Virus record (IMG/VR): IMGVR_UViG_3300046794_000311
Span: 21,748-85,747 of that record
DNA: 64,000 nt
Direction: 5' to 3' (one strand)
Origin: a virus
The position numbers and the translations under genes are program-made. Below the pieces are notes generated by a model that was not told the origin of the DNA, made no database searches, and saw only the letters and a program-made list of their open reading frames with translations. Below, piece after piece: positions 17,050-49,411 of the stretch (its first letter is position 1; each line of letters opens with the position of its first letter).

Positions 17050-17154
17050 GTAGTGCCTTTCTTACGGAAACGAGAACCCGGCGTTTTGAGATGGGGCCGG
17101 GTAACCATCAGCGAGCTATTTGTTCATAGGAGCATGGTCGCTATCCGCTCCTAG

Positions 17155-17227
17155 CTCCCCCACCTGGACTCGAACCAGGAACTCGCGGATTAACAGTCCG
17201 CTGCTCTGCCAATTGAGCTATGGAGGA
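17155..17227 (-). tRNA. tRNA-Asn (GTT)
   Basis: 73 bases. Acceptor stem TCCTCCA/TGGGGGA, anticodon stem GCGGA/TCCGC enclosing CTGTTAA (anticodon GTT), and a T arm with TTCGAGT. Reads AAC and AAT codons. No encoded CCA. Confidence 0.93.
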
Positions 17228-17232
17228 TTGTG

Positions 17233-17312
17233 TAGCCAAGGTGGGACTCGAACCCACACGCCTTTCGGCGCCGCTTTTGAGGCGGCTGACTGTGCCATTC
17301 GTCTACTCGGCC
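17233..17312 (-). tRNA. tRNA-Leu (CAA)
   Basis: 80 bases. Acceptor GGCCGAG/CTTGGCT, anticodon stem GCCGC/GCGGC around CTCAAAA (anticodon CAA, reads TTG), and a short class II variable arm. It lies five bases from tRNA-Asn. Confidence 0.9.
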
Positions 17313-17400
17313 GAACGTGCTCCGCACTGTTGTATCCGGTTTAGCACGGGCACTCCAGTCCAGGGTTCTTACCGGTCCCGGACTTTCCTACTGGTGAATC

Positions 17401-18024
17401 CTACTTCACCGTGTAGCGCCCGTAGTAAACGGACCGCGTCCACGGCTTGTAGTAGTTCACGCCCTTACCGGGACGCTCCGACTCCAGCCACGTCGTGGAA
17501 TTGACGTAGATAGCCACGTGGTAAACGCTGCCGTGGGAGTCGTGAACGAAGACCAGGTCGCCCTTCTGGGGCTTCGAGACCTTCGCGCTGGAGCGGTACT
17601 GCGCGTCCGCGACGCGGGGGATGCTCTTCCCCAGCTTCTTGAACGTGTAGTAGGTCAGGCCGGAGCAGTCGAAGCCCGCCGACGGCGAGGTGCCGCCCCA
17701 GACGTACCGCGTACCGATGTACTTGGCGGCCTGGTTGACGATCTTCGTGCCCGACGAGGTCGAGCTGCTGGTCGTAGGAGGCTTCGGGGTGGACGTGGAG
17801 GCGGTCAGGTAGATCTTCTCGCCGACGTAGATCCTGTTCGGGTTGGATATGTGGTTGATGGACGCGAGGTGCTGATACGTCGTCTTGTGGGCTGATGCGA
17901 TCCCGCTCAGGGTTTGTCCGCTCTTCACGGTCACGTAACTGGCCGACGCGTCCGCGACCGAAGCCGCGATCGGGGTTATGGCCAGTGCGCCCGCAAGAGC
18001 GAGTCCAGCGATCCTCTTATTCAT
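17401..18024 (-). CDS. Secreted LysM - NlpC/P60 cell-wall hydrolase
   Basis: 207 residues. Signal peptide with hydrophobic core at about 6-25 ending near ASVADA. LysM domain at about 30-75 ([16 protein letters not shown]), a Ser/Thr/Pro linker, then NlpC/P60 with catalytic Cys120 in FDCSGLT and His169 in VYHVAIYV. It would cut stem peptides of peptidoglycan outside the membrane. A signal-peptide exported hydrolase placed between two tRNA pairs is odd for an endolysin and looks host-derived; a second, GH25 lysin is at 50496. Confidence 0.92.
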
Positions 18025-18192
18025 GATGCACTCCGCACGCCTGCGAAATTAGGTGACGGGCTCGGGATAAGTGCTGTTCCCTACCACAAATGGTTCTGCG
18101 GATTCGCCCCAGTACTGCGTTTCGGTCTCCCGCCCCTGTTCAGGGTTGATTGCAGTTTTTGTCCAGGAACAGGGCTCGGCGTCTGGACAAAG

Positions 18193-18265
18193 TGGCCCCC
18201 CTTGGAATCGCACCAAGATCTCCCGCTTTTCAGGCGGGCGCATTAACTGCCTCTGCCAAAGGGCC
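18193..18265 (-). tRNA. tRNA-Phe (GAA)
   Basis: 73 bases. Acceptor GGCCCTT with GGGGGCC (two G-U pairs), anticodon stem CCCGC/GCGGG around CTGAAAA (anticodon GAA). The D arm is irregular, but the overall cloverleaf forms. Confidence 0.85.
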
Positions 18266-18270
18266 TTGAG

Positions 18271-18344
18271 TCTGGACGGCAGGATTCGAACCTGCGACCC
18301 CCTGAATCCAAATCAGGCGCGCTACCGGGCTGCGCTACGTCCAG
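18271..18344 (-). tRNA. tRNA-Pro (TGG)
   Basis: 74 bases. Acceptor CTGGACG/CGTCCAG is perfect; anticodon stem CCTGA/TCAGG around TTTGGAT (anticodon TGG); T arm GCAGG/CCTGC with TTCGAAT. Confidence 0.93.
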
Positions 18345-43944: not shown

Positions 43945-44328
43945 TTACTTGGTAGTCGTTGGGGTTCCCGTGACGGTCTTCACCGGGCACGGAATCTTGA
44001 CCTGCACGGAATGCGTATGTGCGAGCCCATATACGGGTGCGTACGGCGTAGCCGTGGACGTGGGCGTAACTGCGGGCGAAGGCCCGACCACGATCGACAC
44101 CTTGCATGTACCCGTGGTCTTCGCCGGGGTGGGTGCCTCCGCGTAACGGGTAACCGTGGGAACGGGCCACGGATTGGAATCCCCCTCGGTTCTGGAAGAA
44201 TCCGACTGTGAAACCCCGGTATTAAGTCCGGTGGAATTCTGCTCGGGGATCACGGAAATTCCGATCGCGGGAATCGCGAGAAATCCGATTGCGATGAGGG
44301 CGGCCTTGATTCGGCGGAATCTGTTCAT
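43945..44328 (-). CDS. Secreted or membrane-anchored Thr/Pro-rich protein
   Basis: 127 residues from the ATG at 44328. N-terminal hydrophobic signal anchor (about 8-27), then a low-complexity region rich in Thr, Pro and Ser with two cysteines (TGTCKVSIVV ... VKIPCPVKTV). STGLNTGVSQ carries the recurrent word (44218). The form is similar to small actinobacterial surface proteins. Confidence 0.72.
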   Translation of the reverse strand: MNRFRRIKAALIAIGFLAIPAIGISVIPEQNSTGLNTGVSQSDSSRTEGDSNPWPVPTVTRYAEAPTPAKTTGTCKVSIVVGPSPAVTPTSTATPYAPVYGLAHTHSVQVKIPCPVKTVTGTPTTTK

Positions 44329-44474
44329 ACCAGCACCGTACCGTAGCCCTCGCAGGGGACACAGTCCGCTCCGTCGCGGTCCTCCCCCGTGCCGTAGCAC
44401 CGCTTGCACTCGACCTCTTGTGCCGCGTCGTCGCCGCTTTCGGCGAAAGACACTGCATGCACGTGCGCGCTCAT
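44325..44474 (-). CDS. 49-residue DnaJ-type zinc-finger protein
   Basis: The stop overlaps the next ATG. Contains CKRCYGTGEDRDGADCVPCEG then YGT: two CxxCxG(x)G repeats as in DnaJ zinc fingers. Perhaps a small chaperone-like or nucleic-acid-binding peptide. Confidence 0.65.
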   Translation of the reverse strand: MSAHVHAVSFAESGDDAAQEVECKRCYGTGEDRDGADCVPCEGYGTVLV

Positions 44475-44486
44475 GAGAAGTACTAA

Positions 44487-46025
44487 CTAACCTTCCTGGT
44501 TGTAGAAAGTTGGTACATCGACGATTTCCGCGTCGATGAATCCGCTGCCGGACTCGATCATCCGGTCAGCCGGGATGGGGTGGTCGAGGGCAGTCATCTG
44601 CTCCCCGGCGTCCTTTCCGAACAGGCGACTGATCATACCGGCCTGGGCGCCATTCCCCTTAGCCTCCAGTTTCACGGAGAAGGAATCCTGCTCCAGTTCG
44701 GTCTTCACCTTCACCAGTTTCTGGAGCCGGTCGATCTCGCCGGAGAGGTTCGGATCCGCGTAACCGCCGGTCATGTCCTCCACCATCTTCATGAAGAGGA
44801 CCCGCTGGGCCTGCATCTCGATGAGGGAATTCTGGAGCGAAGCCATCTGCTGCTTGCTCTTCACTTCGACCGGGATGTCGTATGCGCAGTTGGCATCCTT
44901 GTCGAAGGCCGGGCACTTCTGGGCCAGGAAGCACGTCGAGCACACCCGCATGGACTGCGAGCGGACGGTCACCAGCGGAACGTCTCGCTCCTTGTTAACG
45001 CCGTCGTCGGGGTCGGTGTAGACCTCCTTCTCCTGCACCACACCGATGACCGGCAAGTTGGTACGCGGGCGGTCCCTGCGAGGGGCGGGAGTTGTTACGC
45101 CGTTGAGCATTTCTCCGGTGGTCGTATCAACTGTGCCCCCCTGCATTTGAGAGAAAGTCGAAAGTACCCCTGAAGGGGAAGTAGTAACTGGATCGGCCTC
45201 GGGCGCGCGGTGCTGCTCGATGGAGGCTGCGAGTTGCTGCCACGACCAGATGGTGAACCGCAGCACCTCGTTGTTGTCGCCGTCCTCGATCTTGTCCGGA
45301 TCGAAGCCCGCCTCCTGGAAAAGGGTGCGGTGCCGCTTTCGCGCCTGGTCCTTGTATTTCTTCGGGTACCGCTTCAATTCCCGGCCGGTCCAGACGATGG
45401 TGTCACCGTACTGGGAGGGGGAAATCCAGGAGGTGGACGCGACGGAATCCCAGTTCACGGCCGCCATTTCAGCAGGCTTCGTCATTGCGACGCCGTGCAG
45501 CAGGGTTCCGTATTTCCGGGTGATCTCGTTGAGGATCGGAGCGAGATTCCGTCCGTCCAAATCCGTTTGCGGAACTCCGACGCGCTTATAGCGCTGGGCG
45601 AGGCGGTCGAGTTCTTCGACGCCCCATTCCGAATGCCAGATGGGAAGGAACTTGTCCTCCGGCAGGTCCTCCCAGAAATCCTCGCGCCGGGCCTCTATCC
45701 ATTCCCGTCCGAGAACGACAGCGTCGAACTCGGACACCATATTAAGCGAGTCGATGTTCTGCTGGACGAAGGCTTCGTAGTGCGCGGCGATTTCCTTGAG
45801 TTCGCCGATCGAGTACTTGTCGTCCTCGGCCTTGTTCACGGTGTAGGCGCCGGAGTCCAGGAAGACCTTCTGGCCCTCCAGGTAGTGGTCAGCGATGAGC
45901 CACGGACGGGAGAACTTGGTCCTCCTCCTGAGCCCCATGTAGGACAGGGAGACGTTCTCGACGCCTTCCTCGGCCAGCATCTTGCGCCAGCCGGGAATCT
46001 CTGAACCGCCGAAGTACAGTTCCAC
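44487..46025 (-). CDS. TGT/DpdA-like TIM-barrel protein
   Basis: 512 residues. The N-terminal 260 have YFGGSEIPGW, SLSYMGLRRR, VFLDSGAYTVNK, HYEAFVQQNIDSLNMVSEFD, LHGVAMTKP, and WDSVASTSWISPSQYG. The order and phrases resemble tRNA-guanine transglycosylase-like proteins such as DpdA, which insert 7-deazaguanines into DNA. A Pro/Thr-rich linker follows. Then comes a cysteine cluster (CSTCFLAQKCPAFDKDANC, about 355-375) and a helical C-terminal part. Fold call moderate; DNA modification is inferred. No queuosine-pathway genes are visible in this window. Confidence 0.7.
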   Translation of the reverse strand: MELYFGGSEIPGWRKMLAEEGVENVSLSYMGLRRRTKFSRPWLIADHYLEGQKVFLDSGAYTVNKAEDDKYSIGELKEIAAHYEAFVQQNIDSLNMVSEFDAVVLGREWIEARREDFWEDLPEDKFLPIWHSEWGVEELDRLAQRYKRVGVPQTDLDGRNLAPILNEITRKYGTLLHGVAMTKPAEMAAVNWDSVASTSWISPSQYGDTIVWTGRELKRYPKKYKDQARKRHRTLFQEAGFDPDKIEDGDNNEVLRFTIWSWQQLAASIEQHRAPEADPVTTSPSGVLSTFSQMQGGTVDTTTGEMLNGVTTPAPRRDRPRTNLPVIGVVQEKEVYTDPDDGVNKERDVPLVTVRSQSMRVCSTCFLAQKCPAFDKDANCAYDIPVEVKSKQQMASLQNSLIEMQAQRVLFMKMVEDMTGGYADPNLSGEIDRLQKLVKVKTELEQDSFSVKLEAKGNGAQAGMISRLFGKDAGEQMTALDHPIPADRMIESGSGFIDAEIVDVPTFYNQEG

Positions 46026-46784: not shown

Positions 46785-47071
46785 GGTCGTGTGTCCCTTC
46801 GGACGAAGTAGAGGTAGCGGTGCGCGGCGAGGAGGGAGAGGAGGAAGCCGACGTTGATCCAGGACCGGCCGGAGGAGGGCGAGGTCCAGAAGACGGCGCA
46901 GAAGACAGCGACGTTGGCGCTGTAGAGGAACAGAGCGGCCGACAGCCACTTCTCTGCGGCGCCGAGCTGGCGCCAGACAGGGAGGGTGGCCCGCAGCAGC
47001 AGGGCCGAGAAGGCGGCGCCGACGAGGGCGTTGAGCATGCGGGCGATCTCGATTACCAGGGTGAGGGTCAC
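46781..47071 (-). CDS. Three-helix membrane protein (holin candidate)
   Basis: 96 residues from a GTG overlapping the upstream stop. Hydrophobic segments at about 2-28, 42-60 and 66-86, with a basic C-terminus (YFVRRDTRP). Size and topology fit class I holins, and the endolysin gene is 3.5 kb away in the same direction. The assignment is only topological. Confidence 0.65.
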   Translation of the reverse strand: MTLTLVIEIARMLNALVGAAFSALLLRATLPVWRQLGAAEKWLSAALFLYSANVAVFCAVFWTSPSSGRSWINVGFLLSLLAAHRYLYFVRRDTRP

Positions 47072-47562
47072 AGGATCTCCATGTGTGGTCTCGGGTCTTC
47101 TTCGCGTAGTGCTCGTTGCCGCTCCACCTCGCCGACCAGTGCGGACCAGGGCGTGACGGTGTCGCGGTAGTCCGGCCGGAAGCGCGGGGAGGAGTAGTTG
47201 GGGTGCAGGTAGTTCAGGACCCCAATCCCGGACGCCATGACGTGCGCAGCGATCTGGGGATTGGGCTCGATCAGCAGCTCGACGTTGCATCCGGCCTGCC
47301 GGAGCCGGGCGATCTGCCGCATCCTGCGTTCGGCTGGATCCTCGGGGTCCAGGGCCTGGGCGAGGGTGAGGTAGGGGTGCTTGTTGAAGCCGTTGACGCG
47401 CAGCCAGTGCTGGATGTACTCGGCGTCCTCGCTGTCGCTGATCAGGGCGACCTTGTAGGACTCCATCAGGCCCCAGTACAGGCGCTGGCCCTGGTGGATG
47501 ACGGCGTCTCCTACCTCGCGGGAGAGCACTCCTTCGATGACGATGGCGACGGTTGCAGTCAT
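47068..47562 (-). CDS. HAD-like protein with degenerate motif, 164 residues
   Basis: Starts TATVAIVIEGVLSREVGDAV, where HAD enzymes have DxDGVL. The first Asp is replaced, so catalysis is doubtful. Then KVALISDSED and ELLIEPNPQIAAHVMASGIG resemble later HAD motifs. Possibly a nucleotide-binding but inactive phosphatase fold. Confidence 0.68.
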   Translation of the reverse strand: MTATVAIVIEGVLSREVGDAVIHQGQRLYWGLMESYKVALISDSEDAEYIQHWLRVNGFNKHPYLTLAQALDPEDPAERRMRQIARLRQAGCNVELLIEPNPQIAAHVMASGIGVLNYLHPNYSSPRFRPDYRDTVTPWSALVGEVERQRALREEDPRPHMEIL

Positions 47563-48418: not shown

Positions 48419-49411
48419 TTACGACCTCCGGTAAGGGGTGTTCCAAAGAGCCGCCTTCGCGAGCGCGGTGGCGGCGTCATCGAGCGGAGCCCCGTACAGG
48501 TCGGTCTCCTGCGCCTTGTGGGCCTCGACGTCCGCTGTGGCGAGAGCGTTCAGGGCCTGTACGGTGCCCTGCTGCTTGTGTGCCTGCCAGCGGAAGTTGT
48601 AGTAGTCGCCGTAGCCGGATCCCCCAGGGCCGAAAGCCTGTCGGCGGCCGAGGTGGATGTCGTCGAAGAGGGCCTTGGCCTGCTGGACGACGATCTTCTG
48701 GGAGGCGAGGGAGTTCTGCCACGTGGCGGAGTTCGGGGAGGCGCTGGAGGCCGTCTTGCGCAGGTGGTTGTAGCGCTCGACCAGCGTGCGGGCGTGGGCC
48801 TCCTCCGTCTGCACGGCGTCCCACCAGTGCTTCGGGTACAGGCTGTGCGGGTCGGCGGGCAGGGACGGCGGCCGGATGTCCCAGCGGTCGTGGGTGAGGT
48901 TGTAGGCGGCGTACGGGTTGATGGCCGCGATGGAATTCGCCGTGGTGCCCGGGTTCAGGTAGTAGGTGACCTCGTAGACCTGTCCGTGGAAATCGGTGGT
49001 CGCGGTGCGCGGCCACAGGTTCTTCTTCAGGTCCGAGTTCATCAGGTCGGAGAATTCGGCTTCGGAGACGCCCTGGTAGGTGGGGTTCATCTCGTAGAAC
49101 TTCGGGAAGTCAATTCCGAACAGCACGTCGAGGTCGCCGTTACCCCGGTCCCCAGCCCACTGGAAGGAGATGCCGGACCCGGCCAGCCAGGCGGCCAGCC
49201 AGGTACGAACGCCCTGGTAGCGACCGTCGAGGTAGGTATTAAGGACGCCGAGGATGTGGTCCCGGACGTCTGGCTTGATGTGGTCCCCGTCGAAGATGTG
49301 CGGGTCGAGCCCTGCCTGGGGCGTGCTGAAATACCCAGAGGCTCCCGAGTGAATGTCGGGCTGCTCTCCCTGGGTGATTGCTCGATTGAGATAGAACTCG
49401 TATCCGGCCAT
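48419..49411 (-). CDS. Nucleotidyltransferase-like protein, 330 residues
   Basis: GISFQWAGDRGNGDLDVLFGID (about 79-100) has the G(S/D)...D-x-D pattern of a nucleotidyltransferase active site. A long helical region follows (EEAHARTLVERYNHLRKTAS). LNT near residue 59 is the recurrent word. The target might be RNA or protein; unresolved. Confidence 0.72.
   Translation of the reverse strand: MAGYEFYLNRAITQGEQPDIHSGASGYFSTPQAGLDPHIFDGDHIKPDVRDHILGVLNTYLDGRYQGVRTWLAAWLAGSGISFQWAGDRGNGDLDVLFGIDFPKFYEMNPTYQGVSEAEFSDLMNSDLKKNLWPRTATTDFHGQVYEVTYYLNPGTTANSIAAINPYAAYNLTHDRWDIRPPSLPADPHSLYPKHWWDAVQTEEAHARTLVERYNHLRKTASSASPNSATWQNSLASQKIVVQQAKALFDDIHLGRRQAFGPGGSGYGDYYNFRWQAHKQQGTVQALNALATADVEAHKAQETDLYGAPLDDAATALAKAALWNTPYRRS

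Follow-up and report, generated by a model that had tools for sequence, protein, structure and literature searches.

In tRNA-guanine transglycosylases (TGT), Asp280 attacks and Asp102 assists (PMC6165067), and a precedent for a non-catalytic TGT homolog exists in the eukaryotic QTRT2 subunit (PMC6165067). In phage CAjan, DpdA is required for dPreQ0, as proven by deletion (PMC6884629). A source of preQ0 is not a strict requirement for DpdA phages, since singleton DpdA phages exist: Salmonella phage 7-11, which is without preQ0 genes, carries traces of dADG, and the DNA of actinophage Orion is unmodified (PMC6884629). The database names queuine tRNA-ribosyltransferase and DpdA imply that a group of large actinobacterial phages has modified DNA. 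For the protein described here, the sequence speaks for a lost chemistry and a fold still under selection.

The protein is encoded in a 64,000-nucleotide stretch of viral DNA (the window), which spans 21748-85747 in a virus record of 85.7 kb (G000) that may be incomplete. The ORF pointed out at this locus by an earlier, sequence-only reading is real: it is a single frame of 512 codons starting with GTG, and we add its strand (minus), absent from that reading. Five isolated Streptomyces phages, all of them large (BRock, GiJojo, LuckySocke, Alone3 and pSt2308), encode full-length homologs with about 48% identity, annotated as queuine tRNA-ribosyltransferase, dpdA-like tRNA-guanine transglycosylase or hypothetical protein. 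With the full-length protein as a query, 36 matching loci were found in IMG/VR, and phrog_887 ('queuine tRNA-ribosyltransferase') matches nearly the entire protein (E=7e-79); Pfam and NCBIfam contain no model matching it. Given these homologs and loci, the phrog_887 match and the low dN/dS of the N-terminal barrel (see below), the ORF did not arise by chance. The gene probably belongs to an actinobacterial phage. Five family members (L032, L034, L082, L086 and L087) lack ATG, GTG and TTG where the start codon is expected; the codon there is ATA or ATT in L032 and L034.

The N-terminal half had been described as a transglycosylase-like TIM barrel, and this is borne out, the family being DpdA. 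The AlphaFold2 model, based on 48 aligned sequences, is confident for the barrel (pLDDT mostly >90) and less certain for the C-terminal part, a β hairpin and two long helices (Table 1). Using hhalign, the barrel could be aligned over 256 columns with a profile of six Asp-keeping DpdA sequences (9g, CAjan, 7-11 and three more) with P=99.9 and E=3e-34, compared to E of 0.03 or worse for unrelated controls. The barrel is homologous to proven DpdA, and the transglycosylase fold, the absence of which the sequence-only reading had named as counterevidence, is there. A five-sequence DpdA HMM produced exactly one match per genome in 17 genomes (E=3.8e-25 for G000), and a second DpdA was not found in any genome searched with it. 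Foldseek, run against a viral library, retrieved phage proteins named queuine tRNA-ribosyltransferase. Other resources were less informative. In the PDB, the fold search yielded only generic TIM barrels and no TGT, PDB sequence searches gave nothing useful and no TGT among their matches, neither PF01702 (the TGT family) nor any NCBIfam model matched, and hhalign to E. coli Tgt aligned the DSG segment alone. In Microbacterium phage Megan, two different TGT-like proteins are apparent (BFVD A0A649VLV5 and A0A649VKF2), which could represent a catalytic/non-catalytic pair.

The three motifs singled out previously, LDSGAYT, LHGVAMT and WDSVASTSW, are located at about residues 56-62, 176-182 and 192-200, respectively. 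DpdA features a general-base Asp in the DSG motif and the conserved His196, and both are present, as Asp57 and His177. The equivalence of 9g Asp72 and Tgt Asp102 comes from the alignment to E. coli Tgt TDSGGFQ. Lys125 and Trp200 do not vary across the 77 distinct full-length fused sequences compared; in these, the Asp57 column has Asp in 54 and is replaced in 23, the window protein being among those that keep it. What is missing is the nucleophile. From the His-Gly motif through SSSW/STSW, the alignment to 9g and CAjan DpdA is ungapped, with 24 residues in both. HGFGITSRPLMERYPWYSCDSSSW of 9g and HGVAMTKPAEMAAVNWDSVASTSW of the window protein are equally long and place Asp215, which is invariant across the intact DpdA set and equated with TGT Asp280 by motif order, opposite Ala196. 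In the 77 sequences this column is occupied by Ser (45), Ala (28), Leu (2) or Thr (2) and never by an acidic residue, nor did the fused loci listed from later scans show an Asp at this position. Asp193 of WDSVASTSW was considered as the nucleophile and rejected: its column varies within the family (D/T/E/V/S/Y/A/H) and lies three residues off the DpdA Asp column. Inteins tend to occupy active sites, and in MT835482 (L050:5794-7992) an apparent intein interrupts the DpdA frame exactly at the active-site motif HYPFFSSDSS / TTW.

The barrel, although nucleophile-less, is under strong purifying selection. Relative to close relatives, dN/dS is 0.06-0.13 in the barrel, 0.8-1.0 in the linker and 0.05-0.35 in the Cys4-helix part, which indicates that the dead-looking barrel is still needed. 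In an unrooted tree with long branches the fused proteins cluster together (support 97), and a single loss of the nucleophile is compatible with this.

The long C-terminal part with its cysteine cluster had been called unusual, and it is indeed both real and unusual. The four cysteines (C362-X2-C365-X5-C371-X8-C380) are followed by a helical region in which Q405, R408, E416, D424 and E430 are invariant in all 77 sequences. At least 499 relatives of this C-domain are present in IMG/VR, and those in bacterial genomes all belong to Actinobacteria (Streptomyces, Saccharothrix, Nonomuraea, Actinomadura and Terracoccus). Some copies in Streptomyces genomes from later scans have no Cys motif; at L235:4996-6348, L236:4888-6363, L234, L237 and L238 the Cys4 is lost, the helices are kept and TSTSW stands at the nucleophile motif. 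In four loci, Bacteroides phage BS162P1, MT835482 (L050), L049 and L151, the C-domain is encoded by a separate gene. Its neighbors are an Asp-keeping DpdA and QueE in all four and QueC in three of the four, the Que assignments other than those in BS162P1 and that of QueE in L049 being by sequence resemblance and motif. In the compact operon L151:2409-6127, the genes run in the order DpdA, QueD-like, Cys4/C-domain gene, unknown 202-aa protein and QueE. BS162P1 and L049 likewise have an uncharacterized gene that separates the Cys4 gene from QueE. The ISRLFG-type motif is common to fused and solo C-domain proteins; the AlphaFold2 model of the solo C-domain has a pLDDT of 58. A C-terminal DAE[VILFY] motif occurs in 39 of the 77 family members and 2 of 317 control ORFs, and we give it no weight, as the control set includes non-coding ORFs. 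We found no description of the Cys4 partner domain in preQ0/DpdA operons of Bacteroidota-type phages, and it makes a testable candidate for a missing part of deazaguanine DNA modification. It also hints at a way in which DNA packaging may have evolved out of DNA modification.

Table 1. Features of the gene and its conserved neighbors (window coordinates)
Feature	Position	Strand	Basis or conservation
Whole gene, 512 aa, GTG start; DpdA-like barrel fused to Cys4/helical C-domain	44487..46025	-	
TGT/DpdA-type TIM barrel, residues 1-272	45210..46025	-	AlphaFold2, hhalign, DpdA HMM
Asp57 of LDSGAYT (9g DpdA Asp72; E. coli Tgt Asp89/Z. mobilis Asp102)	45855..45857	-	
Asp101 (EFD), aligned with 9g DpdA Asp114	45723..45725	-	Asp in 75/77
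His177 (9g DpdA His196; PMC6884629)	45495..45497	-	invariant, 77/77
Ala196, in the column of the DpdA/TGT nucleophile Asp (9g Asp215; TGT Asp280 by motif order)	45438..45440	-	
Disordered linker, residues 277-329	45039..45197	-	AlphaFold2 and dN/dS of about 0.8-1.0
Cys362, Cys365, Cys371, Cys380 (CX2CX5CX8C)	44886..44942	-	invariant, 77/77
Two helices, residues 391-447, GGYADPNLSxEIDRL	44685..44855	-	AlphaFold2 and alignment
ISRLFG, residues 465-470, short conserved motif in flexible tail	44616..44633	-	
HAD-like protein, 164 aa, conserved neighbor	47068..47562	-	motif only; homolog called hydrolase or phosphatase
Protein of 330 aa with nucleotidyltransferase-like GS...GDLDVL motif, conserved neighbor	48419..49411	-	motif only

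Taken together, these observations make it probable that the protein is a pseudo-transglycosylase that evolved from DpdA and gained a DpdA partner domain by fusion, and that it serves as a DNA-binding adaptor without catalytic activity, possibly in packaging. The protein most likely grips DNA without modifying it, because the nucleophile is missing in every relative examined and because the barrel is fused to a four-cysteine domain that elsewhere is separate and stands beside a working enzyme. The barrel comes from the same stock as phage DpdA; it has kept the shell of the pocket (Asp57, Asp101, His177 and Trp200) and lost the nucleophilic Asp, so that the covalent DNA intermediate for base exchange should be impossible. 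It may instead bind phage DNA, possibly enclosing a flipped base that is then not exchanged. The disordered linker joins it to the Cys4/helical domain, otherwise a separate protein beside an Asp-keeping DpdA, and this domain together with the LFG tail might recruit, or oligomerize with, another phage machine, with packaging as the leading candidate.

A narrower form of this explanation, overlapping with it, is that the protein is a packaging factor of the small-terminase type: the degenerate TGT barrel would recognize the packaging site and the Cys4 C-domain would engage the large terminase. We regard this as possible, though short of probable. The lead comes from a Foldseek match over 579 columns (E=7e-6) to gp6 of Gordonia phage Jumbo, a 'terminase small subunit', which together with its relatives is encoded immediately upstream of the large terminase. 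Such relatives occur in 113 phage records from Gordonia, Tsukamurella and Rhodococcus, and in six of seven further records inspected the gene directly precedes an annotated large terminase. The Cys spacing of the Gordonia proteins is identical (CX2CX5CX8C), phrog_6902 (terminase small subunit) matches BRock residues 340-433 (E=0.006), and no small terminase was recognized among ten genes tested around the GiJojo large terminase. An hhalign comparison of the C-domain with that of the Gordonia-type proteins gave E=5e-6 and a score of 41, against a maximum of 19 for shuffled profiles. However, this signal disappeared when the cysteines were masked, and with the Cys columns fixed the null reached up to 29.6 compared to 37.7, so that the resemblance is largely that of the Cys motif. 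The barrel matches the Gordonia N-terminus only weakly, with a score of 29 against a null maximum of 19.5. Moreover, in the loci scanned no large terminase turned up at a distance of up to about 6 kb from the gene, the fused gene and the large terminase of GiJojo are about 73 kb apart, and the Gordonia 'terminase small subunit' itself has seemingly been annotated by position. Firm homology to the Gordonia small terminases was therefore downgraded after the two cysteine controls; we treat it as suggestive, and the packaging role as a branch hypothesis.

It is also conceivable, if unlikely, that a DNA base-exchange enzyme, deprived of its nucleophile and fused to a DpdA partner domain, became a genome-recognition module, with the dead pocket recognizing a flipped base in the packaging site. 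In that case the small terminases of the Gordonia type would form a more degenerate branch of the same lineage.

The opposite view, that of an active DpdA using an alternative nucleophile residue and preQ0 scavenged from the host or the environment, can draw on the retained Asp57, Asp101 and His177 and on the dADG traces of phage 7-11, a singleton-DpdA phage without preQ0 genes (PMC6884629). The loss of one residue is no proof of inactivity, and Asp57 or Asp101 could conceivably serve another chemistry. Yet the nucleophile is lost in 77 of 77 sequences, Asp57 itself is replaced in 23, and the pathway around the enzyme is missing. Searches of G000, an 85.7 kb record that may be incomplete, and of five complete related phages revealed no FolE, QueC or QueD. 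QueE did not turn up in these genomes or in eight further relatives, although it was detected in two positive-control phages. On the host side, none of the 101 Streptomyces genomes surveyed had a TGT hit and only 10 had a QueC above the cut-off; Streptomyces were chosen as hosts of the isolated relatives and may not be the host of the window phage. QueC is thus missing from most Streptomyces, and Orion, likewise with a singleton DpdA, has unmodified DNA (PMC6884629). The sequence-only reading had suggested a swap of guanine for 7-deazaguanine and had pointed to FolE, QueC, QueD and QueE as genes to look for. None of them turned up in G000 or the five complete relatives, and the swap is left unsupported, given Ala196, the lack of acidic residues in its column and the counts for Streptomyces. 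For these reasons (nucleophile loss, missing pathway and hosts) active DpdA was rejected as the leading view, and we consider it quite improbable.

The surroundings of the gene raise a further option, in which the fold would serve another kind of chemistry, such as that of a DNA glycosylase or another base exchange, performed with the two conserved neighbors. The gene lies inside a syntenic block common to the window, BRock and GiJojo, and in most fused loci it is preceded by a gene for the 330-aa nucleotidyltransferase-like protein, the HAD-like protein of about 165 aa, or both. This conservation, along with the partly conserved pocket residues, speaks for such a chemistry. Against it, the functions of the neighbors are motif-based only, with no convincing Pfam match for either, and the pocket residues are more variable than the Cys4 domain, so that we hold it to be distinctly unlikely. 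In the HAD-like protein (47068-47562) and its homologs, the usual first catalytic Asp is not evident (IEGVL, LDGVL), so that it and the fused protein, as neighbors, may both be pseudo-enzymes. A small downstream ORF (44328-44486, minus strand) is related to the BRock CxxC protein (gp35) and weakly resembles anti-termination Q-like and DnaJ zinc motifs. Elsewhere in the window, four tRNA genes (Asn, Leu, Phe and Pro) lie at 17154-18344 on the minus strand. That the protein is a tRNA-guanine transglycosylase with phage or host tRNA as its substrate, in line with the older BRock annotation 'queuine tRNA-ribosyltransferase' and the presence of tRNA genes in the window, is very hard to maintain in the face of the lost nucleophile, the absence of a PF01702 match and of TGT in the Streptomyces genomes (0/101).

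With DpdA of Enterobacteria phage 9g and Escherichia phage CAjan (PMC6884629), the window protein shares a homologous TIM barrel, the DSGA motif, the conserved His196 and an equally spaced SSSW-type motif; it differs in having Ala in place of the nucleophile Asp and an extra 240 residues of linker and Cys4 domain, and preQ0 genes were not found alongside. QTRT2 (PMC6165067) is likewise a TGT-fold homolog that has lost its catalytic residues and serves as a non-catalytic partner, but it is a subunit of a tRNA enzyme and has no such C-domain, so the comparison is an analogy only. The 'terminase small subunit' of Gordonia phages Jumbo, GMA3 and Woes and of Tsukamurella phage TIN2 (phrog_16015, phrog_6902) is of similar size, with a large N-terminal domain followed by Cys4 and helices; in contrast to the window protein, it adjoins the large terminase and has no recognizable TGT motifs, and the sequence link between the two is weak outside the Cys motif. 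The solo Cys4 proteins of BS162P1, MT835482, L049 and L151 have the same C-domain, with CX2CX5CX8C, QxxR, GGxxDxNLSxExDRL and the LFG tail; there it is a separate gene beside an intact DpdA and carries an extra Cys-containing N-terminus, whereas in the window protein it is fused. Finally, the 'dpdA-like tRNA-guanine transglycosylase' of BRock and GiJojo (phrog_887) is the same protein over its full length, and the window protein belongs to this group, whose annotation implies activity and whose residues argue against it.
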